A stretch of 28,825 nucleotides of DNA, from IMG/VR virus record IMGVR_UViG_3300025872_000232, positions 1-28,825 of that record; one strand, written 5' to 3'. Both the position numbers and the translations under genes were made by a program. Source of the DNA: a virus. Of this stretch, positions 2,350 to 16,246 are shown in pieces. The notes under the pieces are model-generated. The model did no database searches. It saw only the letters and a program-made list of their open reading frames with translations, and was not told the DNA's origin. The first letter of the stretch is position 1; each line of letters starts with the position of its first letter.

Positions 2350-5300
2350 TTAGATAAGATTTTCTGGAGTACCTGGAATATTAAGTTTGGGATTATTTGA
2401 ACTGAGTTCAGTGTCCGTACCAGATCTCTCAATAGCACTTGCAGCAGTAGTGACTTGAGCATTAATGCTATCCTGGAGAGTGTCATAAACTTGAACAAGT
2501 TCACCTGGAGTCTCATAGAATCCAGCATATCTGACTCCATCTTTATAGAATACAGACCCATAGTATGCTCTACCATCAACATATCCATTTTGCTTAAGAC
2601 CAACAAGATCTGTAACTTGAATCAGTTTTTCTGGAACAGTTACTATCGGATCTCTCACAACCTCAAACTGAGGTCTGAATGAAGCATTAATGCCAGTAGG
2701 AACTGCCCCAGGTGGTGATACCATTTGTATCTGAGGATACTCAGTAAATCCAAGACCAGGATTTAAAACTTTTACTTCTTTAATCTTTCCGAAAGAATCG
2801 CAAACATAATCTAACACAGCACCGTTACTTGGGGTGATTTGTATTTGATCAACTCCACAGTTGTAATTAATGCCAGGATTTTCTACAATAACTTCTCTGA
2901 GTCTTAATCCTGCAGGATAAGAACCTTCTCCTGATGGTGGAAGATATCCATTTCCAGGATCTTGAATAACAACTTTTTTAACTACTCCTTTACCACTCAA
3001 CTTTTTGGGGCAAGGTGGAGGAATTAATATCGCAGAAATACCCATTGGATTTGACGACCAAGGAGTTTTATTTTGATCTCTTATTGTTACATCTTTACGA
3101 ATAACAACTCCAAATCCAGTTGGATTATTGTTGAAAACATCAGTTCTATCTTTTATATTTTCAACTTCAACTATAACATCATAGGTTCCTGCGCTGATAT
3201 TAACATTTTCAAAAGTTGGTGTATCTTTAAATGAAGTAGTGGTTAGTACTTTTGTTCCTCCAATATAAAGAGATCCTATATTATCTGCCTGAAATGCTAT
3301 TCTATATTGCCCACTTTCAGGAAACTTAACACCTTTCCAAGTATATTTTTTTGTTCCGTTGATTTTTGGATTAGCAACATCAAAAGGTGGTAGATAGGGA
3401 GATACCGAATGATTATTCATAAACTCTCCCCATCTACTATCAGAGTAGTGGAAAAGAGATGGGCCCTCATAAGTAATCCCATCCTTCACAGTTCCACTAC
3501 TCAAATATCCACCAGTGATTGATGTTGATGTTGATGTTGTACTCGTACTTTTAGTGTCGGTTATAATGAGTTTAATATTCTCATCAGTTCCATCAGCATC
3601 AAGTAGACCAAGTTTATTATTAGAAACTCTTGGAGTTCCTGCACCTAAATTTGCACCTATTATTTCAATAGGACCATAAGTTTTACCCGCAGTAAACTTA
3701 CCAGATTTTTTAATAGTCTCTTTTTGAGGAATAGCGGATTCTTGTATGCGTAATATATTTGGATCATTTGTGGTGCCGGCGGGAAAAGATGGAACAGATC
3801 TTTTAAAACTAATCTTATTACCATCACTAGGCAAAATAACTTCTTTTGCAGCAAGACCAGCAATATAAGGGGCATCATCAACTTCCATGACAAATTCAAT
3901 TTCACCAGACCCTGATCCAGTAACTTCAAGGTAATACTTACCATTTTTTTGAATGAATTTTGGTTTGATATTACCTTGATTGACACTAGTAGAAGTAGAA
4001 GATATACCAGCAACTTGCCAATCTTTTGTCCCGAATATTTTTTGATCTATTGTGTTTTCGGTAACGATAGGTGTATTATAAACTTCGGCAGTAATTGTGT
4101 GTCTTCCTTTTGTAATAAATGTTTTAACCAGTTTGGGATCATCTACATTAAAACCATCAAGTTTTGATACCTCATTATTGTCAATTAAAATTCTTCCAGT
4201 ATTATCTCTGGTCCCCTTAACACCATAGAATCCATCATAAGGTATATCAATATCCCATGATGTTGAATAAGTTGCACCAGCTTTATCGCTACCGGGAGTA
4301 TCCAATGGTTTAACTGGAGAAATTGCATAGCGATTCATAAATCTACTCCATCCAGGAGCATCAAAAGTCCTAGTCGAAGTCGTTGTACTATTCTTAGTTG
4401 TTGGTGCGGCATCAAATCTATAAACTAGATCATAGGTGCTTCTACCACTGTTCTTTGCTTTTCTCTTGTTGGAACTCGTAAACGTTCCTACAGCTGCTGC
4501 GATTTGAATATCATCATTATCATTTCCAGATTTAATATAATCCGCAAAGATTTTATTGGAAGTCCCAATACCATTTTCTTTTGCTTTAGTTCCTCCTTTT
4601 ATTAATCCCTGCTCAACTGAACTAAACTTAGTAGAATCTTCTTTTGCAACTACAATGTAGTTAATATTTGGTTTTATTTGTACCTTATCTTTTCTAGTTT
4701 TCTTATTTTTATCCACTCCATATAAAGTAAATGTATGAGATCCATCAACTGCAGTAAAAACAAATGAAAGATCTCTAAAAGCTCCCTGACCATAAACAGA
4801 AAACTCAACTTCTTTTTTCTCTAGCGTAGGAGTTGCAACATTTGTGGTGACGATTTCTGTTATTGTTCTTGGTCCAGGGAACTTTACTGGATACCATTTT
4901 TCTGTTTTTGTGGGGAATCTAGTTGTCCATATTGGATTGTTTGGACATCTACCTTCTTGTGCAGGTACTGGTTCTTGAGGAACAGTAGGTTCAGGGGCAT
5001 CTATCGTAACAGAGATTCCCATTGGATTTTCATTCCAAGACTTTGGAGATATAACCTCCTGAGTTGTTGTAGCAACAGACACCTCCACAGCAAGAGCCAT
5101 TGGATTGATATTTTTACCCTCAGCAAATCCAAATTTTCCCCCGGGTATTTGCTCTAGGTCTGCGATTATTTTATATTTTCCAGCCTTAAAAAATCTAGTC
5201 TCTGTCGTCTTTCCGGTGCCTTTACTAGGAGAACTAAATCCTTTCTTAGATATTATAATATCTCCTTTAGATCCGCTGAAAGTAAGTTTAACATTATCAT

Positions 5301-7053
5301 CAACTTCAATATCTATTGAATAACTTCCATCAAATGGAAAATCAATATTGTCCCAAACAATCCTATGAGTCCCTGCATATGGATTATCCTTCAGTTGAAC
5401 ACTAGTATCAAATGGACATACACCTTGTTCATTTATAAATCCACCTCTACCATAAACATTAGTTCTCCAAAGTTTTCTGTTTGCCTTATTAATATAATCT
5501 ACAGTATTAAAAATTTTCTTTGTTTGGATAGTGGAGTTTGATGCTGTAGAAGATGTAGTATCTACAGACCCTTCTATGAAAAAAGTTAAGTCATAAGTAC
5601 TTCTACCACTATTCTTTGCAGTCCTCTTATTCTTAGACTGGAATTTACCAGAACCTGCAGTAATCTGTATATCATCATTATCATTTGCAGAACCAATATG
5701 ATCTGCAAATATTTTATTTGAAGATCCTATTCCACCTTCCTTATTTTTCTTACCATTCTGTATGATACCCTGTTCAGTTTCTGCAAATGTGGAGACTGCA
5801 GCAACTTTATATTTTGTATTTGGTCTTACTTTAACCGTTTCATTTCTACTTTCTTTACTTTTTTTATTACCTAACAATACAAAGGAATGTGACCCATCCT
5901 CAGAGACAAAGGAAAACTTTAATTTCTCAGTTCTTTTACCTTCACCATAAACAGTAAAACTAACATCAACTAATCCGGATGGCAATTGAGAGGTAACTTT
6001 TTCTTTGATAGGAGCATTTAATAAATCAACACGAATATTATGGATACCCTCTTTGATTGTTTTTCTAATATCATTTACTGGACCTTTAAATCCACCAAGA
6101 TCAAAAAGTTTTTCATTGTCAATATACAATTGTGCTATGTTATCACACAATCCCCTAAAAATATATTCTCCTGTTGTTGGAAATTCTTCATTCCATTCCA
6201 TCGTAAATAATGTTGCTGCATAATCACTTCCCTTAACATTGGAAGGTGGAACTGGGGATACTGCATATGAGTTCATAAACTCGGACCAAGAATCACCAAA
6301 ACTTACTTTATAAGCTTGAGTGGTTGTTACTCGGGGATCACTTGCTGTTATTTTAGTTGGTCTGTTTCTTCTTGTACTCCAAAAAGGTTTCCTTTCAGCA
6401 GCTCTTACTCCCCTTTCATACTTTTCAATTTCAGTTCTTATAGGATCTATACCAATCTTTGTATATGCGTTCGGTTCCCATGGACCCAAATCTTCTCCAT
6501 TTGGGCCATACCTTCTTCCAAATCCAGCATCATTTGGATCGCAAATTTCATATTCCTCAAAATCCGTTTCATCAGTATAAGTTTCAAATCCATCAACAAC
6601 TTCACCAATAACTGCTGTTAAAACTGACCCACTTCCATAGTTGCAGTTATCATTAGCAGATACTTGTGGTGGATATTGATACCCATACCCCCCACTAACA
6701 AGATCAACTGCCAATAAAGACCCATCTATACCAATAACAGGATTGCCAACAGCACCAATGCCACCCCCACCATAAATCTGAATAGATGGTGGGCCACATT
6801 CCTTTTTCTGATTTAATCCATCACATTCTTGATTGGTTTCTAACTCTTGAGGAGTAAGTGAGTTAACTTCGTTTATATTAATATATCTTAAAACTTTATT
6901 CCCATCCTTAAATAAAAATGTAGTTCCAGGATTTTCCTTAGCATACTCATTTGCATCACAAATGGTTACATCATTGACATACCCAAGCTTTGGATCTATA
7001 TATCCAACTCTTATATCATTCTTTGAAGGTTGTCCGAATAGGTTACTTGCCAT
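2350..7053 (-). CDS. giant multidomain structural protein with PA14-like repeats
   Basis: A 1567-residue protein built from recurring modules. Three copies of a PA14/lectin-like beta-sandwich begin near residues 252, 900 and 1207. Each has (W)xxFMNxxxxSPxxP, a W-x-x-x-x-(F/I)P-x-x-(G)xY stretch and D-N-x-x-x-(L/I)-x-I-(D/G). A related, more diverged copy starts near 545. A second module occurs twice (about 383-488 and 768-874): DGSH(S/T)F, then a GIG-(S/T)-SNKIFAD block, NDNDDIQI, and the identical NSGRSTYDL. Two copies of a W-x-x-NPMGIS strand also occur. The C-terminus (about 1480-1567) has an aromatic VDGRAYYGSVFYKDGVRYAG patch. PA14-type modules bind glycans in other proteins, so host-surface recognition or baseplate decoration is likely, by inference. 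No clear Shine-Dalgarno. Confidence 0.7.
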   Translation of the reverse strand: MASNLFGQPSKNDIRVGYIDPKLGYVNDVTICDANEYAKENPGTTFLFKDGNKVLRYININEVNSLTPQELETNQECDGLNQKKECGPPSIQIYGGGGIGAVGNPVIGIDGSLLAVDLVSGGYGYQYPPQVSANDNCNYGSGSVLTAVIGEVVDGFETYTDETDFEEYEICDPNDAGFGRRYGPNGEDLGPWEPNAYTKIGIDPIRTEIEKYERGVRAAERKPFWSTRRNRPTKITASDPRVTTTQAYKVSFGDSWSEFMNSYAVSPVPPSNVKGSDYAATLFTMEWNEEFPTTGEYIFRGLCDNIAQLYIDNEKLFDLGGFKGPVNDIRKTIKEGIHNIRVDLLNAPIKEKVTSQLPSGLVDVSFTVYGEGKRTEKLKFSFVSEDGSHSFVLLGNKKSKESRNETVKVRPNTKYKVAAVSTFAETEQGIIQNGKKNKEGGIGSSNKIFADHIGSANDNDDIQITAGSGKFQSKNKRTAKNSGRSTYDLTFFIEGSVDTTSSTASNSTIQTKKIFNTVDYINKANRKLWRTNVYGRGGFINEQGVCPFDTSVQLKDNPYAGTHRIVWDNIDFPFDGSYSIDIEVDDNVKLTFSGSKGDIIISKKGFSSPSKGTGKTTETRFFKAGKYKIIADLEQIPGGKFGFAEGKNINPMALAVEVSVATTTQEVISPKSWNENPMGISVTIDAPEPTVPQEPVPAQEGRCPNNPIWTTRFPTKTEKWYPVKFPGPRTITEIVTTNVATPTLEKKEVEFSVYGQGAFRDLSFVFTAVDGSHTFTLYGVDKNKKTRKDKVQIKPNINYIVVAKEDSTKFSSVEQGLIKGGTKAKENGIGTSNKIFADYIKSGNDNDDIQIAAAVGTFTSSNKRKAKNSGRSTYDLVYRFDAAPTTKNSTTTSTRTFDAPGWSRFMNRYAISPVKPLDTPGSDKAGATYSTSWDIDIPYDGFYGVKGTRDNTGRILIDNNEVSKLDGFNVDDPKLVKTFITKGRHTITAEVYNTPIVTENTIDQKIFGTKDWQVAGISSTSTSVNQGNIKPKFIQKNGKYYLEVTGSGSGEIEFVMEVDDAPYIAGLAAKEVILPSDGNKISFKRSVPSFPAGTTNDPNILRIQESAIPQKETIKKSGKFTAGKTYGPIEIIGANLGAGTPRVSNNKLGLLDADGTDENIKLIITDTKSTSTTSTSTSITGGYLSSGTVKDGITYEGPSLFHYSDSRWGEFMNNHSVSPYLPPFDVANPKINGTKKYTWKGVKFPESGQYRIAFQADNIGSLYIGGTKVLTTTSFKDTPTFENVNISAGTYDVIVEVENIKDRTDVFNNNPTGFGVVIRKDVTIRDQNKTPWSSNPMGISAILIPPPCPKKLSGKGVVKKVVIQDPGNGYLPPSGEGSYPAGLRLREVIVENPGINYNCGVDQIQITPSNGAVLDYVCDSFGKIKEVKVLNPGLGFTEYPQIQMVSPPGAVPTGINASFRPQFEVVRDPIVTVPEKLIQVTDLVGLKQNGYVDGRAYYGSVFYKDGVRYAGFYETPGELVQVYDTLQDSINAQVTTAASAIERSGTDTELSSNNPKLNIPGTPENLI

Positions 7054-7094
7054 CAGAATATATTAAATAATCTCTCTACAAAGAAGCATATGTA

Positions 7095-7102
7095 TATTTA
7101 TT
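7095..7102 (-). promoter_or_regulatory. possible late promoter (AATAAATA)
   Basis: The minus strand reads AATAAATA, 7 of 8 matches to the T4 late consensus TATAAATA, about 42 bp upstream of the giant structural gene and in the short gap after the gp5-like stop. In so AT-rich a genome a 7/8 match can arise by chance. Confidence 0.3.
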
Positions 7103-7106
7103 GAGG

Positions 7107-8882
7107 TTATGCAATATTAGAATTTGCTCCGACTGTAAATCCGGAAACAGTACTGGTAGGATTATTAAAATTAAGATCCACTGTAGTCTTGGCTGGTTGT
7201 GCAAAATCAACTCCCGGAGAGAAAGCAATCTCGGTTGCAGATTGAACATTCTTAGCGACTGAACTATAATTTGGAGTCTGCGATTCTTCTCCAGCACCAC
7301 CACCCTTATGCAAGGTATAATAATCCGAAACAGGACAACTTGGTTTCAAATCACACCCAAAAACATTCAACTTAATATTTTCAAAACTCAATGCAGAAGT
7401 AATGCTGCTGGTTATAGAAGAAACACTTGCAGAAATGTCAGACAAGTTTGAACTAACTTGGGCGAGTTGAGATTGGATATCTGACAAGAATTTGTTGATG
7501 ATATCCAGTATATCATCAATACCTTGATTTATATCATTTTGATTTGTCGCAACAAGATCTCCGGTCAGTTTTTCAACAGAACACATATCAACCTTCGGTG
7601 CAGCATTATCTGGAGAAGGTGTTTTAGTATCCAAAATATTATTCAATGCGCTTTGTATTTGACCACACAGATTATTAGTTATCTTATTGAAAATGCAAGT
7701 GATCAACTCAGTGATCGTCTCTTTAACATCAAGAAACTGATATCTTTGATTTGGATACATTGAGTCCACTGTTGGTGCAATAGATTTATTAATCTGCTTC
7801 AATATAAACTCAAGTATCTTATCAAAAACAATTTTCATATACTTCGCAATCTGACACGCAAAGTCTGCAATCAATCTTTGAATATCAGATAAAATCTGAG
7901 ATGCTGCGTCAATATAACTTTGAGCTGCTTGTAAGATCTTATCTATTTCTTTAGTCAGATTATCTAATAATACCTGAATAGCTTTTAAAGCAGATGATGT
8001 AATATCACAAGGACTCAACATTATTCTCTTTTTCAGATACAAATCATTTCTTTTTGTATCTGCATTAGTTTGAATGTGATTATCATCAGGGTTTTCAACT
8101 GTTGCTCCAGGTTTTGATGGTGCAGATGGTGAGTTTGCTTCTTGGCATCTTGCTTTAATACCATCGGCAACCTTACTTTGAATGAAGCGACTTCTCTCAG
8201 TTCCTGTTAAACCTCTTGCCTGTGCTTCAGCAACTGCGCTTTGTTGATCGGCAAACTGTTGAGAATTTAATGATTTATCAGCACGAAGACCAAACTCATT
8301 AACAGCAACTCCTGGTGGAGGGGGAGCACACTCAGCAGACTGAACAGGATCTTTTGGTTTTGTTACGCCGATTCTATCATCAGGAACTGTTGGTTTTGCC
8401 GATCCAACTGGTGGATCTTTTCCTTCAGCAAAACCACTGGTCGCTAAACTTCCAGGAGTTTCATTTGTAACTTGTTGAGTCTTGGTCCAACTTGTTGCTA
8501 GTTGTGTCTGGGCATTATTACCAAGAACTCCCATAATAACGGGAACTTGTTGATCCTGCCCATCAAGAAAGAATCCAAATACAAAGTTTCCTTGACGGAG
8601 ATTTGGAGTCTGAGAAGAACCTGTTTGTCCACCACCTGCGGTGATAGGATACATCACCTGAGCCCATGGAAGTTGATCAGAAGGGATTACCTTCTCTCCT
8701 TGATCGTGTAATCCTACAATCCTTACCTTATATCTTCTTCCCCATCCAGGTATTTGCTCAGCAGACTCGTGCTTTCCTGGAAGAGAATTATCTCTCCAAG
8801 TGGAATCATCAGCGATCTGACCGACCCACCAGTTAAAATGTACCCCCAGAAACCCTGGATTAAAAAGAGATCCGCCTTCCAT
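7107..8882 (-). CDS. 5: baseplate hub, gp5-type OB-fold protein without lysozyme
   Basis: A 591-residue protein. Residues 1-125 resemble the N-terminal OB fold of T4 gp5: WWVGQI near the start, YKVRIVGLHD, LPWAQVMYPIT, then FVFGFFLDGQDQQVPVIMGVLG. After a Pro/Ala-rich linker (130-270), residues about 285-500 are long amphipathic helices with heptad-like spacing (SALKAIQVLLDNLTKEID; FLSDIQSQLAQVSSNLSDI). They probably make a trimeric coiled coil, and several Cys are present. T4 gp5 (575 aa) has an internal T4-type lysozyme and a beta-helix; I find neither here. The gene lies six bases after a small gene and downstream of the gp27-like hub gene, matching the gp27-gp5 partnership. No strong ribosome binding site. 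Confidence 0.72.
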   Translation of the reverse strand: MEGGSLFNPGFLGVHFNWWVGQIADDSTWRDNSLPGKHESAEQIPGWGRRYKVRIVGLHDQGEKVIPSDQLPWAQVMYPITAGGGQTGSSQTPNLRQGNFVFGFFLDGQDQQVPVIMGVLGNNAQTQLATSWTKTQQVTNETPGSLATSGFAEGKDPPVGSAKPTVPDDRIGVTKPKDPVQSAECAPPPPGVAVNEFGLRADKSLNSQQFADQQSAVAEAQARGLTGTERSRFIQSKVADGIKARCQEANSPSAPSKPGATVENPDDNHIQTNADTKRNDLYLKKRIMLSPCDITSSALKAIQVLLDNLTKEIDKILQAAQSYIDAASQILSDIQRLIADFACQIAKYMKIVFDKILEFILKQINKSIAPTVDSMYPNQRYQFLDVKETITELITCIFNKITNNLCGQIQSALNNILDTKTPSPDNAAPKVDMCSVEKLTGDLVATNQNDINQGIDDILDIINKFLSDIQSQLAQVSSNLSDISASVSSITSSITSALSFENIKLNVFGCDLKPSCPVSDYYTLHKGGGAGEESQTPNYSSVAKNVQSATEIAFSPGVDFAQPAKTTVDLNFNNPTSTVSGFTVGANSNIA

Positions 8883-8888
8883 TAATTA

Positions 8889-9107
8889 TCAATCATCATA
8901 AACTCTACATTCAAGTGCATCTGGATGTTCATCACAGTACATTTCAAATCCCGTAGGATCATGATCAGTATCTGGATGATTAATTTGATACTTTTCTAGA
9001 TGGTCTAACTCATCTTGAAGATGTCTGCGGCGCTGGCCATTAGTTGTGGGATTATCAATCTCATCTCTATCATCATTAATGTGCTGTTGAAGTGTTCTGT
9101 CGCTCAT
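8889..9107 (-). CDS. small acidic protein between gp27-like and gp5
   Basis: Seventy-two residues, very rich in Asp, His, Glu and Gln, with no hydrophobic segment. Residues 1-45 are likely helical (QQHINDDRDEIDNP ... RRHLQDELDHLEKY). The C-terminal part has two Cys (MYCDEHPDALECRVYDD). Its ATG overlaps the TGA of the upstream gp27-like gene (ATGA), so it is translationally coupled to it. The position between two hub genes suggests a small baseplate or assembly factor, but I do not recognise a family with known function. Confidence 0.6.
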   Translation of the reverse strand: MSDRTLQQHINDDRDEIDNPTTNGQRRRHLQDELDHLEKYQINHPDTDHDPTGFEMYCDEHPDALECRVYDD

Positions 9108-10444
9108 AATGGTATCTTGCCAGAAGTGTGATTTCCAGTTCTACCAAAAGAATCTCTTACTAAGTTAAGTTTAGTATAAGTTTCTTTAGTAGAAATATAG
9201 TGACATAAATCTGCTATAATATATATCCCACCATAATCCTTGTTTACTTCTTCATCAGCAGTTGAAAGTTCTTTAGCATCTATAAAAACAACATCCCCAG
9301 CGTGCAGTGAAAAGTCTCCTGGAATTGTAACAGTACTTTTTGCGGAGAAGAGTTGATTGTATCTCATTATTGATTGATTCAAAATATTCTTATACTCAAA
9401 GTTTTCCTCTTTAGATTTCCCTATCTGTTGCTTTGTATTCCCCGAAGGCAAAGTTCCCTTATCAAGAAAGTAATAAGTTGTTCTAGAAAACTCTTGATTC
9501 TTACCATCTCGGTTAAACTCAGGATTTAGAGTAGGTAACTCCTTTCCCGCCAACTTTAGATCTTTCTCTTTCTCTTTAGCATTTGGAGTAACAACTTCAT
9601 AGTAACAAGTGAATGGATCAAATAAAACTGTGCGTGTAGAAAAAGCACCCATCTTAAGTTTTTCTTGAACATCAACACGATTATCTTTTGAATATTCAAG
9701 TGCCTTTACATCATATCCGGATGGAATATTATCCCCCCTGGAGTCTGGTGTTTGGTTAAAAGTTATAGACTTCTTCTTTTCTTGACTCAATAAAGAATCA
9801 ATTGACTTAAACTTAAATCCTTCTGATGTTTCAAAGAAGAAAAACCCTGCGGTATTACCCTTTGCATTCTGAGTGTTTGGAACTGCTTTTTTAGACAACC
9901 AGTTCATTGCATAATATGGTTTTCTATTATTTCCTACAAAATTATAGTTGTTTGATGTTTCCTCCACATCAGTTTTCTTTTCAGTTCCAAGATATTTTTT
10001 ATCGGTTAATATCCTCTTAATATGATCAGATATCTTTCCATCAAATCTACTATTCAATCTAACTTTCTCATTTAAAATAAATTCTTTTGATACTAGATCA
10101 AGTTGAACCATTGATTTAGTAGTATCTTCAGAAAGTGGGGTAACTTTGTTAACATACAGAACCAAGTCTAATGTTGAGTTATTATTATCTTTAAACTTAA
10201 CATAAACTTTTTCCTGACCAACAATAGGCAATCCAGCAAGTGCTGTTTTATTATCAATAGCAGTTCCAGAATCAGCAAAAGTTACAGTTGCTTTGATAGT
10301 GTCTTGAAGAATGCTTTCATAATACATCAAACGAATAGTTCCCCCAGTAACACTTACCGTCTTACTTGGATCTTTATTAGAAACTATATCCAGTCTTTCT
10401 ATAAAAGATGTTTCGGCACTTTTTGAGATTATTGGATTTGCCAT
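9104..10444 (-). CDS. 27: baseplate hub protein, gp27-like
   Basis: A 446-residue protein. Its place beside the gp5-type OB protein and after the tape-measure genes is that expected of gp27. Sequence features agree with the gp27/gpD hub fold: an N-terminal beta domain (TVSVTGGTIRLMYYESILQDTIKATVTFADSG), a KVYVKFKDNNN strand, and a C-terminal barrel with TVTIPGDFSLHAGDVVFID, YGGIYIIADLCHYIS and YTKLNLVRDSFGR. The last strands match the usual end of gp27/VgrG/gpD hub proteins. T4 gp27 is 391 aa, so this is somewhat longer, with a charged loop near 300-340. The trimer would seat on gp5 and join the hub to the tube. Assignment rests on fold-type pattern and synteny. Confidence 0.62.
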   Translation of the reverse strand: MANPIISKSAETSFIERLDIVSNKDPSKTVSVTGGTIRLMYYESILQDTIKATVTFADSGTAIDNKTALAGLPIVGQEKVYVKFKDNNNSTLDLVLYVNKVTPLSEDTTKSMVQLDLVSKEFILNEKVRLNSRFDGKISDHIKRILTDKKYLGTEKKTDVEETSNNYNFVGNNRKPYYAMNWLSKKAVPNTQNAKGNTAGFFFFETSEGFKFKSIDSLLSQEKKKSITFNQTPDSRGDNIPSGYDVKALEYSKDNRVDVQEKLKMGAFSTRTVLFDPFTCYYEVVTPNAKEKEKDLKLAGKELPTLNPEFNRDGKNQEFSRTTYYFLDKGTLPSGNTKQQIGKSKEENFEYKNILNQSIMRYNQLFSAKSTVTIPGDFSLHAGDVVFIDAKELSTADEEVNKDYGGIYIIADLCHYISTKETYTKLNLVRDSFGRTGNHTSGKIPL

Positions 10445-10466: not shown

Positions 10467-13400
10467 TTAACTACCAATCACCAGAGACTCAAATGGATCT
10501 TCTCCACCACCCCTCATTACCAGGGAAGATCCTAATGAAGAATAACTAGTATTGCCAGTATCACTAACTTGCATTTGTGGCACAACTACAATTTGTTCCG
10601 ACCCAAATTCATAGTACGCAAAGTTTCTCAATACATTAATAGCCTGATCATATTTTGCATTATTCAATGCTCCTAAAAATCCAGGAAAAGTTTTTTCAAC
10701 AGCAGCAGTAGAATCTGCATCAATGACAAATTCCTTTCCTTTTTCACCAAGCATTGCCATATGAGGACGACCTAATGTTAGACCTCCCTTCTCAAACTTT
10801 ACCACACCACCACCAGTACCACCCATAAACTGCTTTAAAGTTGCTCTTACTTTTGCAGATCCTGCATAATCTCTAGCGCCAATGGCACCAGATCCACCCC
10901 ATTGAGCTCCAGGGACATCAAATGCAAGTCCAGAATAGTGAAGAGATCCGGTAGCATGTCCACCAACTGGACCATATCCTTTAAATTCAGTTACTTGTAT
11001 TCCTTTAGATCTGAAAAAATTAAATGCCCTTTCTGCAGTTCCTCTATCTTTAAACCCAATATGATCATGGTAGTTGCTAGTTGTTCCATGCCCTGCTCTA
11101 TCAAATGTTCCAAATGGCGTATTAGGATCTCCGGTAATATACTGAGCAATAGAACCACCCACACCACCTCTATTCATTCCCACATTACCAAGCTCTCCGG
11201 ATGTTGGAATTTTATATCCCCCACCAGTTCTAAACTTTTCAAGACTTGCAAGATACTCTCTATGTATTCTAGGTCCTTCTGTATTTTGAATATATTCTGC
11301 AGGTCTTTCCCACTTTCTCATCCACCAATCCGCTGCTTGTTGCGGTGAAGAAAAATTAGTAGTCAAATATAGTTGTCCAGGTTCACCAGATTCTCTTAAT
11401 GCATAATCAATTTGTGCTTTCCAATTTGATGCATAGTCAGGAACTGCTCTTAAGAAGTTGGATTTTCTGGGTTCACTTGAATATTGAAATAATCCAACAC
11501 CAGGACCACCAGATTGAGAAACACCTGGTCTAAATGAACTTTCTCTGGATATATTTGCCATGATACCAAGAGCATGAGTATCATCCATTTTTTTTGAAAG
11601 TAGATACTTGTAAATATCCCCTTGCAACCCTTCAGGCGAAAAATCTCCTGCTGTTCCTCCACCCGTACCAGATTCTGGTTGAGATTTTCCTTGGTCTTGT
11701 TCGCTTTTTTTCAACCTCAAATTTTCTTGTATCTCTCTTAAGGTCTTTTGTGCATTGGATTCTGTCGCATCTTTAAATGAAGCAGCAACCCAATCACTAA
11801 TATCTCCACCTTGAGAAATGGCATCTAATGTTTTTGGATCAACAAATCCACCTTCAGCAAATGCAGCAAGTCCACCTTTTAATTTTCCATCGTCTATTCC
11901 CTTTGCAACCAACATATTAATTCCCAAACCAACATTTTTATAATCCTGTTGAGTTGGTTTTTGCCCCAAAAGAATTTTAGAAGTGATAGCAAGTATGGGA
12001 CCAAAATAATCACTCTTACCAAGTTCTTTTCCAGCGTTTTCAATGACTCCAAATGGATTCATAAAACCAGGAAGTTTTGGTTTTGGAAATATTCCAAATA
12101 TTTTTTCTTCTCCACCAACATCAGCACCAGGTTCTATCTGAACATCTCCTGGTTTTTTTGGACTGAGTTTTCTTTTATATTTTCCTTTTTTACCAACAGA
12201 AATAGTTCTTTTTACTCCTCCCGTTGCTTTTCCACCTCTGGTAACACCACCCCCTCTCATACGTTTGGGTTTATCTTCAAGTCCAAGTTTCCTAAGAAGA
12301 GCATCGGAACCTACAGAAGTTGCCATAGATGCTCCAGTTGCTAATACACCACCACCAAGTAAAGTAGCGATAGCAGCTGGAGTTAAAGTTCCTCCACTAA
12401 ACACTGCTTCAGCAACAGCAGCTGCTCCAGTTGCACCAAAAACCCAATTAAAGACTGCCATACTTAATCCGGCAGTTACGATTGTTCTAGATGCGTCTTT
12501 ATATCTGCCTTCTTTTAATAAATTGATAACCTCAAAAGCTGCAGGAACTAATGCAATAAATCCAAAACTTTTTCCAAGGACACCCATAAATTTACTACTT
12601 CCAGACGGAAGTTTTGGAAGACTTGGAAGTTTTGGAAATCTAAAACCACCTCTTCCACCTTGACCTTGTGTTATTCTTGCTCCACCAAATGGCAATCTAA
12701 AACCACCTCTTCCACCTTGACCTTGTGTTATTGTTGGTCTCTCTCTAAAAGGATTTCGTATATCAATACCACCAGCACGACCACCTCCACTTGTTGTTAC
12801 TCTAGGTCTTCCTCCAGTTCCCGGTCTGGTACTTGCACCGCCACCACCTCTTCTTCCACCACCTCCTCCACCAGCAGAACTAGCAGCAATCATTCCTGCA
12901 ATGATTGCAAGATTTAGAAACTTATTTAATAAACTAGAAAGTTGATCAAACTGCTTTACTCCACTATCACCAAAAAGATTCTTTACAAATCCACGAGTGG
13001 CATCATATGCTTTGTATCCCCAATCAACAAATGTTACAAGACCATTTAAAAGTTTTCCGCCGAGATCTAATACAAAATCAGTTGCTTTCCCTAAAAACTT
13101 AACAATGGGAATTATTTTTGGCAAATGATCTACTAATCTTACAGCAAAATAACCAAGAATAATATTACCAATAAAGTTTTTTATCCAATCCAAAAATCCC
13201 ATTCTAGGAGCACTTGGTGTTTTTACTTTACCGGATTCTGCTTTTGGTTTTGTCTCTAACTTTTCTTCTATCTTTTCACGTCGTTTAGAACTTTCTTGTT
13301 TTTTTGCTTCATTTAACTTTTTCTTTTCAGAGGCTAGAGTTCCCTTCAATATACTATCAATCTCAATTACCTTAACCTTAATAACTCCAATATTTTTTAC

Positions 13401-13511
13401 AGAGTTTTCACTTAAAACAAGAGAAGAAGATCCTTTAACGGCAATCTTATTGGTCTTTACGATTGCTCCTCCTTTTGATGATGGTAAAAACTTTTGAGTG
13501 TTGATTGCCAT
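10467..13511 (-). CDS. tape-measure-like protein with tail lysozyme and M15-like peptidase
   Basis: A 1014-residue protein. Residues 60-90 are a charged helix; 105-165 and 195-212 are hydrophobic (GNIILGYFAVRLVDHLPKIIPIVKF); 213-300 are Gly/Arg-rich with a short tandem repeat; 330-410 hydrophobic Ala/Gly-rich. Residues about 628-760 resemble phage tail lysozyme: GIMANISRESSF with probable catalytic Glu657, GVGLFQYS, then ADWWMRKWE. Residues about 785-895 resemble an M15-type peptidase: NYHDHIGF and S-x-x-H-x-x-G-x-A-x-D realised as SLHYSGLAFD (His858, Asp865). The C-terminus carries MAMLGEKGKEFVIDADS, a tape-measure hallmark. I infer a tail protein released on infection to open peptidoglycan. 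Start fixed by AGGTGATATAAATG. Confidence 0.72.
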   Translation of the reverse strand: MAINTQKFLPSSKGGAIVKTNKIAVKGSSSLVLSENSVKNIGVIKVKVIEIDSILKGTLASEKKKLNEAKKQESSKRREKIEEKLETKPKAESGKVKTPSAPRMGFLDWIKNFIGNIILGYFAVRLVDHLPKIIPIVKFLGKATDFVLDLGGKLLNGLVTFVDWGYKAYDATRGFVKNLFGDSGVKQFDQLSSLLNKFLNLAIIAGMIAASSAGGGGGGRRGGGGASTRPGTGGRPRVTTSGGGRAGGIDIRNPFRERPTITQGQGGRGGFRLPFGGARITQGQGGRGGFRFPKLPSLPKLPSGSSKFMGVLGKSFGFIALVPAAFEVINLLKEGRYKDASRTIVTAGLSMAVFNWVFGATGAAAVAEAVFSGGTLTPAAIATLLGGGVLATGASMATSVGSDALLRKLGLEDKPKRMRGGGVTRGGKATGGVKRTISVGKKGKYKRKLSPKKPGDVQIEPGADVGGEEKIFGIFPKPKLPGFMNPFGVIENAGKELGKSDYFGPILAITSKILLGQKPTQQDYKNVGLGINMLVAKGIDDGKLKGGLAAFAEGGFVDPKTLDAISQGGDISDWVAASFKDATESNAQKTLREIQENLRLKKSEQDQGKSQPESGTGGGTAGDFSPEGLQGDIYKYLLSKKMDDTHALGIMANISRESSFRPGVSQSGGPGVGLFQYSSEPRKSNFLRAVPDYASNWKAQIDYALRESGEPGQLYLTTNFSSPQQAADWWMRKWERPAEYIQNTEGPRIHREYLASLEKFRTGGGYKIPTSGELGNVGMNRGGVGGSIAQYITGDPNTPFGTFDRAGHGTTSNYHDHIGFKDRGTAERAFNFFRSKGIQVTEFKGYGPVGGHATGSLHYSGLAFDVPGAQWGGSGAIGARDYAGSAKVRATLKQFMGGTGGGVVKFEKGGLTLGRPHMAMLGEKGKEFVIDADSTAAVEKTFPGFLGALNNAKYDQAINVLRNFAYYEFGSEQIVVVPQMQVSDTGNTSYSSLGSSLVMRGGGEDPFESLVIGS
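12637..12732 (-). repeat. 39-bp direct repeat, 57-bp period, in frame
   Basis: An identical 39-bp block occurs at 12637-12675 and 12694-12732. The 57-bp period is 19 codons and keeps the frame. The encoded unit is ITQGQGGRGGFR followed by LP or FP. It lies in the Gly-rich region of the lysozyme-bearing tape-measure-like protein. Confidence 0.9.
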
Positions 13512-13516
13512 TTATA

Positions 13517-16246
13517 TCACCTGTAAGAAGCCTGACTGTGACCATGAACACCCAAAATCCTTGTTTTATGATTAGATCCTGCAGTAGTGGCACTAAAATT
13601 TGGTGGTCTTGAAGATGATGTATTATTTCTTGGTTTTGTTGAAGTTACTGGAACTGGAGGTCCATAAACAACTCTAGGTCTTGATGCTGGAGGAGGGTTA
13701 ACGGGTCTCACTCCCGCATTTCTTGGACGAGCAAATCTTGATTGATATGGTCCAGATTGGTTTCTTCTTGGGTCATTAGGACCATATAGTGTAACTGAAG
13801 ACTTAGGTTTTGTTGGTGGTATTGGTTTTCCTTTATCATCAGTCGGAGTAAACCCACCACCCAAATCAATACCAGCACCACCAGGTCTTAAATTTCCCCA
13901 ACCAGTGTTTTGATTAATTCTCAAAACACCAGAAAGACCTTTAAACAGTGCTCCCCCAATATCTCCTTTTCTTAAATCAGATCTAGCACCTTTAAAATAA
14001 TCCGATGCAGGTCTATTTCCCTCATAAGTATCATTAGTTATTGCTCTTCCGTTTTTACCTACTCTAAAATTAAATTGACCAAGTGCAAGATTAGCAAGTT
14101 TATCTCCCATCAATCTATTATAATCAGCCTGCCCTAGTCCAACAGCACCTACTCCACCCTGCCCTCTCCTCTGAGCTTCAAGCATTGCGGGTCTGACATA
14201 TCTTCCCAAAGAACCTCTATCATCAATTCTAAATGCTTTTCCTAATGGTCCGGCAAGACCTTTAAGTGCATATTGAAGTCCTGTTATTTTTGCCCCAAAA
14301 TTTTTAACTCTTCCACCTGATATTCTTTCAACAAATTTTTCTGTTCCTTCCTCCTTTAATCCAAGAATAGCAAGTGGGTCAGCAAACAACCCCTTGTTTT
14401 GTATATCTTGAAATCTTTCTTTAACAGATCCAACAAAACCCTTATCTTTTTTTGGATCATAAAGACTCTTTATCCAGGCATCACTCTTTTCAAGATTTGA
14501 TTGTGTAGTTTTTGTTAAAGCTGCATCTGGTTTTAATTCACCAGATTTAATCAATGCATTTTCACGTTCTGTTCCATATTTTTCAAGAGATGCTAATGGA
14601 GAATCCAAAACACCAAATAAACCTTGCGGGAGTTTAACAAGATCTTGTGCCCGATTTGCTAATCCTTGGTAAGAGCGAGGATCTAAACCAGACCTGACTA
14701 CTCCTTGTGCCCGATTTGCTAATCCTTGGTAAGAGCGAGGATCTAAACCAGACCTGACTACTCCTTGTGCCCGATTTGCTAATCCACGCAGTTCCTCAAA
14801 TATACCACCACCTACACGACCAAAATTCATATTAGGTACAGAACCCCTAGATAAACCAGAAATTCCTCCAGAAAAAGATGTTCCCCAAGTTTCTGGTTTA
14901 TCTACATCATATCCAAGTTTATATTTTATAAACTGTTTAACATTATCTATTAATCCACCACCGGCAGCATAAATTTTACCACCCATAATTTTTGGTTGGT
15001 TTGTTCCACCACCAGCAGCATTCATTGCCTCCAGAGTATCAACTCCATACTTGGCAACAGCACCAGTAGACATAACAAACTCACCATCACTAAGCATCGC
15101 AGGGACTTTATCTACCCCCTTCTCACCGCTTACATATCCACTTGCAAGTCCGCCACTAAATCCCCCACCATTAAATCCATAAGATTTTGTTTGCCCTGTT
15201 TTTAATGCTGATATTTGTTCATCAATTTCAGATCCAACACCTTGCATTCTTTGAAAGATGTTTAGATTGGCTTTTTGTTGTTCTAATGCTCTTATCTTAT
15301 CTTCAGTTGATCCTGGTTTTGATTTGGTTTGCCGCTCCTGCTCATCAACAGTTCCCGGGAACATTGCAGGTATTGTAGCTCCAGCAGTAAACAATCCAAT
15401 AGCAGCAGCTGCTCTTGGATTCCTCGCAACAAATCTTAAAAGAGATGGTATTGCAACTTTACCAATGCGGAAAATAAATCCGCCTATCATTTTGGTCAAC
15501 CCTAAAGTCAATCTACCAAAAGAAGTTCCAAATAAAATATAAGAACCAATAAGTGCTGGCCACCAATCTTTTACAAAACGAATAATGGACTTAACTTTAC
15601 TTTCGTTTTTGGGATCACCTAACCACTCAACAAGTTTATAAACTATTCTTCCAAGTATAATATTTGTAAAGAATTCAATTACCCTATCAAGTAAAGATTT
15701 TACTGGCGCTATTATTTTTTCAGCAATTTTCTTTAAACCTTCAAATCTTTTTTCAAGTTTACTTTCAGCAAGTCCTCTTTTTTCCTGCTCCGCTTTTCTC
15801 CTATCATAAGCAGATGTATCGTCAGATATTTTCTTCTGCTGCCTTAAAGTTTCACTTATTGAGACTACAGCAGAAGTAATCGCAGAAATATTACTTTCTA
15901 AACTTTTAGATAATGGAGAAGCACTAATAGCAGTTCCGGGTAAAGATTTAGTTGCTGTTCCTAATATTTTTCCTTTTACACTGCCAATGGTAAATGACTT
16001 ACCAGATATCTTTTTTTTCTTTACTTCAAATCTACCTTGATCTTTTTTGCTTTTAACTCTCTTATATTCATTGGTTAGCAGTTCAACTTCTTCGGTAGGA
16101 ATGGTTGTTTTTGCCATCCTACCTTTAACCATTGCTTCTTTAAGAAGAGTCAGATAAGTTTCATAGTCTAGATCAAAAACATCATCAAGCCCAATAAGCC
16201 TTAAAATTCTAGAATCAATTTCTTCTTTTTGATTAGAAATGGGCAT
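13517..16246 (-). CDS. tape measure-like tail protein
   Basis: A 909-residue protein. Residues 115-190 are helical and charged (KKISDDTSAYDRRKAEQEKRGLAE). Residues 190-300 hold hydrophobic segments (FFTNIILGRIVYKLVEWLG; ALIGSYILFG), and 280-300 are Ala-rich. Residues about 365-415 carry the tape-measure signature GVDKVPAMLSDGEFVM followed by GVDTLEAMNAAGGG. Two exact copies of a 20-residue unit plus a partial third follow (about 485-535). The C-terminal 120 residues are Pro/Arg/Ser-rich and probably disordered. The first 15 codons overlap the end of the small ORF upstream, implying coupling. Position after gp26 matches T4 gene 29, which sets tail length; T4 gp29 is 590 aa, so homology is inferred from signature and synteny, not overall alignment. 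Confidence 0.68.
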   Translation of the reverse strand: MPISNQKEEIDSRILRLIGLDDVFDLDYETYLTLLKEAMVKGRMAKTTIPTEEVELLTNEYKRVKSKKDQGRFEVKKKKISGKSFTIGSVKGKILGTATKSLPGTAISASPLSKSLESNISAITSAVVSISETLRQQKKISDDTSAYDRRKAEQEKRGLAESKLEKRFEGLKKIAEKIIAPVKSLLDRVIEFFTNIILGRIVYKLVEWLGDPKNESKVKSIIRFVKDWWPALIGSYILFGTSFGRLTLGLTKMIGGFIFRIGKVAIPSLLRFVARNPRAAAAIGLFTAGATIPAMFPGTVDEQERQTKSKPGSTEDKIRALEQQKANLNIFQRMQGVGSEIDEQISALKTGQTKSYGFNGGGFSGGLASGYVSGEKGVDKVPAMLSDGEFVMSTGAVAKYGVDTLEAMNAAGGGTNQPKIMGGKIYAAGGGLIDNVKQFIKYKLGYDVDKPETWGTSFSGGISGLSRGSVPNMNFGRVGGGIFEELRGLANRAQGVVRSGLDPRSYQGLANRAQGVVRSGLDPRSYQGLANRAQDLVKLPQGLFGVLDSPLASLEKYGTERENALIKSGELKPDAALTKTTQSNLEKSDAWIKSLYDPKKDKGFVGSVKERFQDIQNKGLFADPLAILGLKEEGTEKFVERISGGRVKNFGAKITGLQYALKGLAGPLGKAFRIDDRGSLGRYVRPAMLEAQRRGQGGVGAVGLGQADYNRLMGDKLANLALGQFNFRVGKNGRAITNDTYEGNRPASDYFKGARSDLRKGDIGGALFKGLSGVLRINQNTGWGNLRPGGAGIDLGGGFTPTDDKGKPIPPTKPKSSVTLYGPNDPRRNQSGPYQSRFARPRNAGVRPVNPPPASRPRVVYGPPVPVTSTKPRNNTSSSRPPNFSATTAGSNHKTRILGVHGHSQASYR
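14641..14785 (-). repeat. 60-bp tandem repeat in tape-measure gene
   Basis: The blocks 14641-14700 and 14701-14760 are identical except for the first few bases. A third partial copy begins at 14761 and matches for about 25 bases. The unit is 20 codons, encoding GLANRAQGVVRSGLDPRSYQ, and keeps the frame. Exact identity at the DNA level, including synonymous positions, points to a recent duplication. Confidence 0.95.

Follow-up and report, generated by a model that had tools for sequence, protein, structure and literature searches.

Tail proteins that join a glycan cutter and a peptide cutter are already known. The gp13 protein of phage phi29 consists of a tail-tip lysozyme and an M23 D,D-endopeptidase, and the H(x)nD and HxH motifs of M23 peptidases have been described as well (PMC9662197). 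In the Anabaena myophage A-1(L), the endoglucanase and peptidase domains of the hub protein gp15 have been assayed and attack Anabaena cells (PMC10966104). Two proteins of Synechococcus phage S-SCSM1, ORF213 (glucosaminidase) and ORF214 (VanY), were found by mass spectrometry to be virion proteins, although the authors point out that they could simply have been left over in the preparation of virions, and consider a role in either entry or release (PMC9602691). Both are also annotated as 'virion protein'.

Here we describe a tail protein, P0001, in which a lysozyme domain is followed by a peptidase-like domain with its putative metal-ligand motifs in reversed order. It is encoded in a stretch of viral DNA of 28,825 nucleotides (IMG/VR record IMGVR_UViG_3300025872_000232, positions 1 to 28,825), which is referred to below as the window.

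Genomic setting

Based on PHROG matches, the window is a tail and replication block of a T4-like cyanophage. The matched genes include those for the tail tube, head closure, tube cap, wedge and ssDNA-binding protein, and in addition those for the helicase loader, exonuclease, PhoH and thymidylate synthase. P0001 belongs to a minus-strand block comprising a gp26-like hub, a 909-aa protein, P0001, a phrog_350 tail protein, a gp5-like hub and a PA14 protein (Table 1). The tail block of Synechococcus phage S-SM2 has the same gene order plus extra small genes, among them CP12, which is placed before gp5. When 50,697 phage records were searched, P0001 matched 23 of them (17 Synechococcus phages, four cyanophages and two marine viruses). 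Since all these matches are in cyanophage or marine-virus records and the tail block is syntenic with that of S-SM2, the host is probably a marine cyanobacterium.

No enzyme domain was detected in the neighbouring 909-aa protein with Pfam and PHROG profiles, and its residues 288-437 match several tape-measure PHROGs. In the middle of the same protein, a unit of about 20 residues (GLANRAQGVVRSGLDPRSYQ) occurs about three times in tandem.

Table 1. Coordinates of P0001, its domains and motifs, and two neighbouring genes in the window.
Feature	Position	Strand	Remarks
P0001 tail protein, 1014 aa, with exchangeable wall-enzyme slot	10467..13511	-	ATG-start ORF; relatives at 41 viral-contig loci
N-terminal scaffold, residues 2-214, phrog_35997	12870..13508	-	E 2.6e-56; common to 909-aa neighbour (E 1e-7)
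Phage_lysozyme2 (PF18013), residues 632-743	11283..11618	-	E 5.4e-18; 66 bits, cut-off 28.2
Glu657, predicted catalytic acid in NISRESSF	11541..11543	-	conserved
Reversed-order LAS/hedgehog-like domain, residues 785-903	10803..11159	-	
His815-Asp816-His817 (HxH motif) on predicted strand	11061..11069	-	H815 and H817 invariant in 73/73
SLHYSGLAFD, residues 856-865, H858-x6-D865 putative ligand pair	10917..10946	-	H and D invariant in 73/73
Conserved C-terminal ~110 residues (901-1013) including GEKGKEFVIDADS	10473..10811	-	kept in 7 loci, middle unaligned
Gp5-like hub/spike protein, 591 aa	7107..8882	-	phrog_33098; Gp5_OB 22.7 bits, below cut-off 25
Neighbouring 909-aa tail protein	13517..16246	-	N-terminal part paralogous to P0001

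A scaffold with an exchangeable enzyme slot

The N-terminal scaffold of P0001 has a second copy within the window (31% identity, E 4.4e-5). At 7 of the 41 related loci (L009, L011, L015, L025, L027, L029 and L032) the C-terminal and other scaffold parts align to P0001 and the middle does not. For example, the protein of L027 shares 77% identity with P0001 over residues 1-204 and 66% over residues 906-1013, and nothing aligns in the stretch between them. Residues ~600-900 are an exchangeable slot filled with wall enzymes, because sister proteins carry M23, Phage_lysozyme, Phage_lysozyme2 and Hydrolase_2 domains there. According to Pfam, Phage_lysozyme2 fills the slot in L009, L012, L015 and L025 and Phage_lysozyme in L032, and in L006 Phage_lysozyme2 is accompanied by the reversed-order domain. 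Matches below the cut-off were obtained to M23 in L027 and to Hydrolase_2 in L013, L031 and L039. The Pfam scan of the L011 middle gave no enzyme match, and that of L045 gave no match beside its reversed-order domain. In S-SCSM1 the P0001 counterpart has VanY, and the glucosaminidase is found in the neighbour protein.

From the sequence-only reading, P0001 was expected to have a tape-measure type end motif next to its enzymes. The C-terminal part is indeed conserved (GEKGKEF begins at residue 922) and the 909-aa neighbour does match tape-measure PHROGs, but the two tape-measure PHROG matches of P0001 itself lie on the lysozyme domain only.

The glycan-cutting module

The enzymes of P0001 lie at positions 10830-11640, that is, residues ~624-894. 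Two peptidoglycan-active modules in tandem within one tail protein had been proposed for this region, and both were recovered as separate domains, Phage_lysozyme2 and the domain with SLHYSGLAFD. The coordinates and the residue numbering given with that proposal were right, Glu657 being exact and SLHYSGLAFD starting at residue 856.

The first module had been read as a tail-lysozyme-like glycan cutter, and the Pfam match well above the cut-off agrees with this (Table 1). The position of Glu657 is occupied by glutamate in 18 of 18 unique relatives; a more distant relative outside the 18 checked by name, L107, reads EG at this motif. The structure search suggested for this module was also informative: among the VIA matches of the lysozyme-domain model, the phi29 gp13 lysozyme (3csr/3csq) scored Z 11.6 (rmsd 3.1, 132-133 residues), and lytic transglycosylases ranked next with Z 8.7 and lower. 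In addition, the relative at L006 aligns to phi29 gp13 by sequence (E 1.4e-7) with the ES motifs matched. Profile, conservation and model comparison thus support residues 632-743 as a glycan cutter, predicted to be of the muramidase type.

A second domain with reversed motif order

The second domain was found in 187 viral-contig stretches, and in 230 with a second profile, the two sets overlapping. The best 80 of the 187 and the best 80 of the 230 were fetched. Together with the sequences from the earlier loci, 166 proteins gave 80 unique segments, and the alignment used here (A5) has 73 rows, 72 unique segments and the window's own. Nine residues are invariant over the 73 rows (H815, H817, F820, E842, H858, A863, D865, P867 and Q870), and residue 816 is D or E in all 47 rows of an earlier set. 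One subfamily is devoid of the GGHxxGS loop and retains H-x6-D, which points to these residues being the working ones.

HxH stands before H-x6-D in 80 of 80 unique sequences of the domain, in contrast to the normal-order phage relatives, where it comes after H..D in 29 of 29. Several of these 29 unique normal-order domains sit at the same place in sister proteins. The order H..D and then HxH is that of M23 as well as that of the normal-order phage set. In hedgehog, too, HxH follows H..D, and the third ligand motif of M15 is ExxH. Within 90 residues downstream of the reversed-order domain, HxH followed by V/I/L/F/A was found in none of the 80 unique sequences. One of the 80 was flagged by a cruder regular expression as having HxH after the aspartate, but the two-residue spacing in that row suggests an artefact of that expression. 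No intermediate between the two orders, with HxH on both sides, was seen.

At the level of known families the domain is nearly silent. With the second domain alone, Pfam gave nothing below E 0.14 and no M15 model at E<=10. Over the 73 members, HH_signal was matched by 10 (best 0.0043), Peptidase_M15_4 by one (0.01) and Peptidase_M15_3 by one (0.1), with no gathering-level match to the reversed-order domain. The PHROG matches are unnamed or weak. Two pattern scans of 84,980 species genomes, the reach of which is limited by the patterns, detected no cellular relatives. Among the structures in BFVD, three matches were obtained at E<=0.001 (S-SKS1, S-CBP3 and one MedDCM phage).

Kinship of the second domain and the origin of its motif order

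The half of the domain that contains H858 and D865 is homologous to known proteins. Compared with hedgehog N-terminal domains (PDB profiles), its best E is 2.1e-4, with the helix, the strand and H-x6-D aligned, and hhalign against the normal-order phage domains, several of which share the slot, gives E 1.3e-8, or 1.9e-10 for the half alone. These profile alignments support the view that the second domain is, through its H/D half, a relative of the hedgehog/M15 (LAS) group and not an ordinary M15. The LAS assignment rests on sequence, since the structure searches list no LAS enzyme: with the second domain alone, Foldseek against PDB gave no LAS among the matches listed (best E 0.19), and no LAS chain was among those listed by VIA (best Z 6.5, Pcc1). 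Both comparisons are taken to follow chain order and could miss a permuted chain, so that the absent LAS match is expected for such a chain, and equally for an unrelated fold.

The AlphaFold2 model of the second domain alone (pLDDT 87, pTM 0.80; for the two-domain model pLDDT 86, pTM 0.65) has the predicted element order strand, HxH strand (residues 31-36 of the model), helix, strand with AFD, helix. Because moving the last two LAS strands to the front yields this very order, circular permutation would be the simplest account of the reversed motifs. Profile comparisons of the HxH half gave it no support: the score against the normal-order C-terminal half was 9.8, and 130 of 500 column-shuffled controls scored at least as high, the wrong half of the normal-order set scored slightly higher (11.2), and a doubled template made the alignment no longer than before. 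We put it forward tentatively, with somewhat less than even confidence, that the domain is a permuted LAS metallopeptidase with its last two strands, which carry HxH, moved to the front, so far confined to phages and having no Pfam or named PHROGs family of its own; with the second reversed-order family described below, the slot would then have favoured the HxH-first arrangement at least twice. In titles and passages of the open-licence literature on phage hedgehog/M15 domains, LAS permutation, cyanophage tail hydrolases, cyanophage gp5 lysozyme, tape-measure M15 and phi29 gp13, no description of a permuted LAS peptidase was found; the passages on permutation deal with relatives of NlpC/P60, with methylases and with the lipocone fold (PMC6403190, PMC7824862, PMC12419801).

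Alternatively, the domain could be a metal enzyme that combines the LAS H/D half with a fold that is different or has been rebuilt; the HxH strand would then be a new or a neighbouring one, and no permutation would have taken place. The HxH half without a match to the normal-order profiles would fit such an enzyme, as would the sequential structure comparison, which leads to two-layer alpha/beta folds, e.g., Pcc1 (Z 6.5, rmsd 2.0, 67 residues). In hedgehog, too, a strand precedes the same helix, and with this topology a ligand could have moved to that strand. Yet a Z of 6.5 is within the range that the tool calls common, and the predicted elements are arranged as in LAS with the last two strands moved to the front, for which reasons we hold a rebuilt fold to be rather unlikely.

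It is also conceivable that the second domain binds peptidoglycan or metal without cutting, as a pseudoenzyme or anchor, and that the lysozyme domain is the sole cutter. Hedgehog, the closest relative with a solved structure, is itself considered to belong to the LAS group without being a peptidase. Nevertheless, nine residues including all of the putative ligands are invariant in 73 diverse sequences, and the domain keeps company with other wall hydrolases, which makes a purely binding role improbable.

The sequence-only reading had called the domain an M15-like peptidase. What stands of this is the relatedness of the H/D half to hedgehog and M15; the third-histidine motif is missing downstream, and HDH (815-817) lies before that half instead. 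An ordinary M15 D-Ala-D-Ala peptidase would account for the SxHxxGxAxD motif, for the homology of this half to hedgehog and to the normal-order phage domains, and for the isolated weak HH_signal, Peptidase_M15_4 and Peptidase_M15_3 matches. With the downstream HxH-hydrophobic motif absent throughout and the order of HxH and H/D opposite to that of all normal-order relatives, it is very unlikely. This identity was rejected as no third-His motif (ExxH or HxH) follows SxHxxGxAxD and no M15 profile matched above the cut-off.

Distribution of reversed-order domains

The reversed-order domain is found in several kinds of tail proteins. In the podovirus S-CBP3, a Synechococcus phage (L236:3325-6300), SLT_3 is followed by the reversed-order domain near the C-terminal end of a 991-aa protein. 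This protein, annotated as hypothetical, is encoded between tail tubular protein B and an internal core protein. At L063 the domain is accompanied by M23 and by an amidase match below the cut-off. Long proteins (1,125-1,808 residues) contain it as well, and some of these resemble siphophage tape measures. At L041 the reversed-order and lysozyme-type domains are on two adjacent proteins (4990-7308 and 7299-9806) and not on one. The reversed-order family thus occurs in tail proteins of myo-, podo- and probably siphophages, and if the permutation is a true one, it would be a peptidase family overlooked by ordinary profile and fold searches.

A second reversed-order family was observed in the same slot, with an M23-type GNSGxSxGxHFH motif, then H..D and then FVAHG (31 unique sequences; e.g., L015:8287-8727, L011:8257-8727 and L018:8179-8652). 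GNSGxSxGxHFH matches the M23 C-terminal motif with a score reached by 0 of 300 shuffles, and the score of the rest against the M23 N-terminal part was reached by 179 of 300. This family had no solved relative at E<=10 and, in the four of eight members scanned, no Pfam match at E<=10. The similarity of the two reversed families to each other was not above that of shuffles (40/300).

Proposed role in wall entry

We consider it fairly probable that P0001 belongs to the virion tail of a T4-like cyanophage and that its slot pairs a muramidase-type domain with a LAS zinc peptidase-like domain for local wall cutting at entry. The P0001 gene lies between that of the gp26-like hub on one side and those of the phrog_350 tail protein and the gp5-like hub on the other, and the conserved N- and C-terminal parts of the protein would anchor it in the tail. 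The presumed metal site would be formed by H858, D865 and one histidine of H815-D816-H817. After attachment, the two domains would make local cuts in the glycan and the cross-link peptide, letting the tube and the DNA pass. The sequence-only reading had proposed a complete wall-penetration device that would be ejected at infection; presence in the virion is supported through the syntenic homologue in S-SCSM1. That P0001 acts instead in lysis as the infection ends is highly improbable: the S-SCSM1 authors do leave release open, but the gene is inside the tail block between hub genes, structural genes are found at the syntenic place in S-SM2, and the virion proteome of S-SCSM1 includes the homologue (PMC9602691).

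The gp5-like protein of the window belongs to a PHROG named 'baseplate hub and tail lysozyme', and no PF00959 (Phage_lysozyme) was found in it at E<=1. Its Gp5_OB score, as well as those of its counterparts in S-SM2 (27.2 bits) and S-SKS1 (20.3 bits), is close to the cut-off of 25, and the Pfam scan returned Phage_lysozyme in none of these three proteins. In T4, gp5 has OB and lysozyme domains, and local wall cutting is done by the latter. As the gp5-like proteins match Gp5_OB and show no match to Phage_lysozyme, unlike T4 gp5, wall cutting may have moved from the spike to P0001. To infect Synechococcus and its kin, these abundant marine viruses have to get through the host wall, and P0001 is a probable new site of wall cutting. 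The swappable wall-enzyme modules may track differences in the host wall.

Comparison with known systems

Similarly to phi29 gp13 (3CSQ/3CSR), P0001 has in one tail protein the same type of lysozyme followed by a putative zinc peptidase. In gp13 the peptidase is an M23 enzyme, whereas the domain in P0001 is hedgehog/M15-related and in reversed order, and the enzymes of P0001, unlike those of gp13, are placed inside a large scaffold with swapped modules. A-1(L) gp15 is likewise a cyanophage baseplate-region protein with glycan-cutting and peptidase domains, but in that phage the enzymes are in the hub itself, whereas P0001 is a separate protein encoded beside the hub genes.

S-SCSM1 ORF213 and ORF214 form a pair syntenic with the 909-aa neighbour and P0001, and ORF214 shares the N-terminal scaffold (36% over P0001 residues 94-204, E 4e-15). 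Unlike in P0001, the two enzymes, glucosaminidase and VanY, are on separate proteins, and as read from the translation, the motifs of the ORF214 VanY domain are in normal order. SWZG_00255 of Synechococcus phage S-SKS1 combines Phage_lysozyme2 with the same reversed-order domain (44.5% over residues 633-892), but it is short (371 aa) and without the large scaffold. Compared with the hedgehog/M15 (LAS) group, the order of HxH and H-x6-D in P0001 is reversed. The enzyme pairing is thus a known kind of device, and it is the reversed-order peptidase-like domain that is new.
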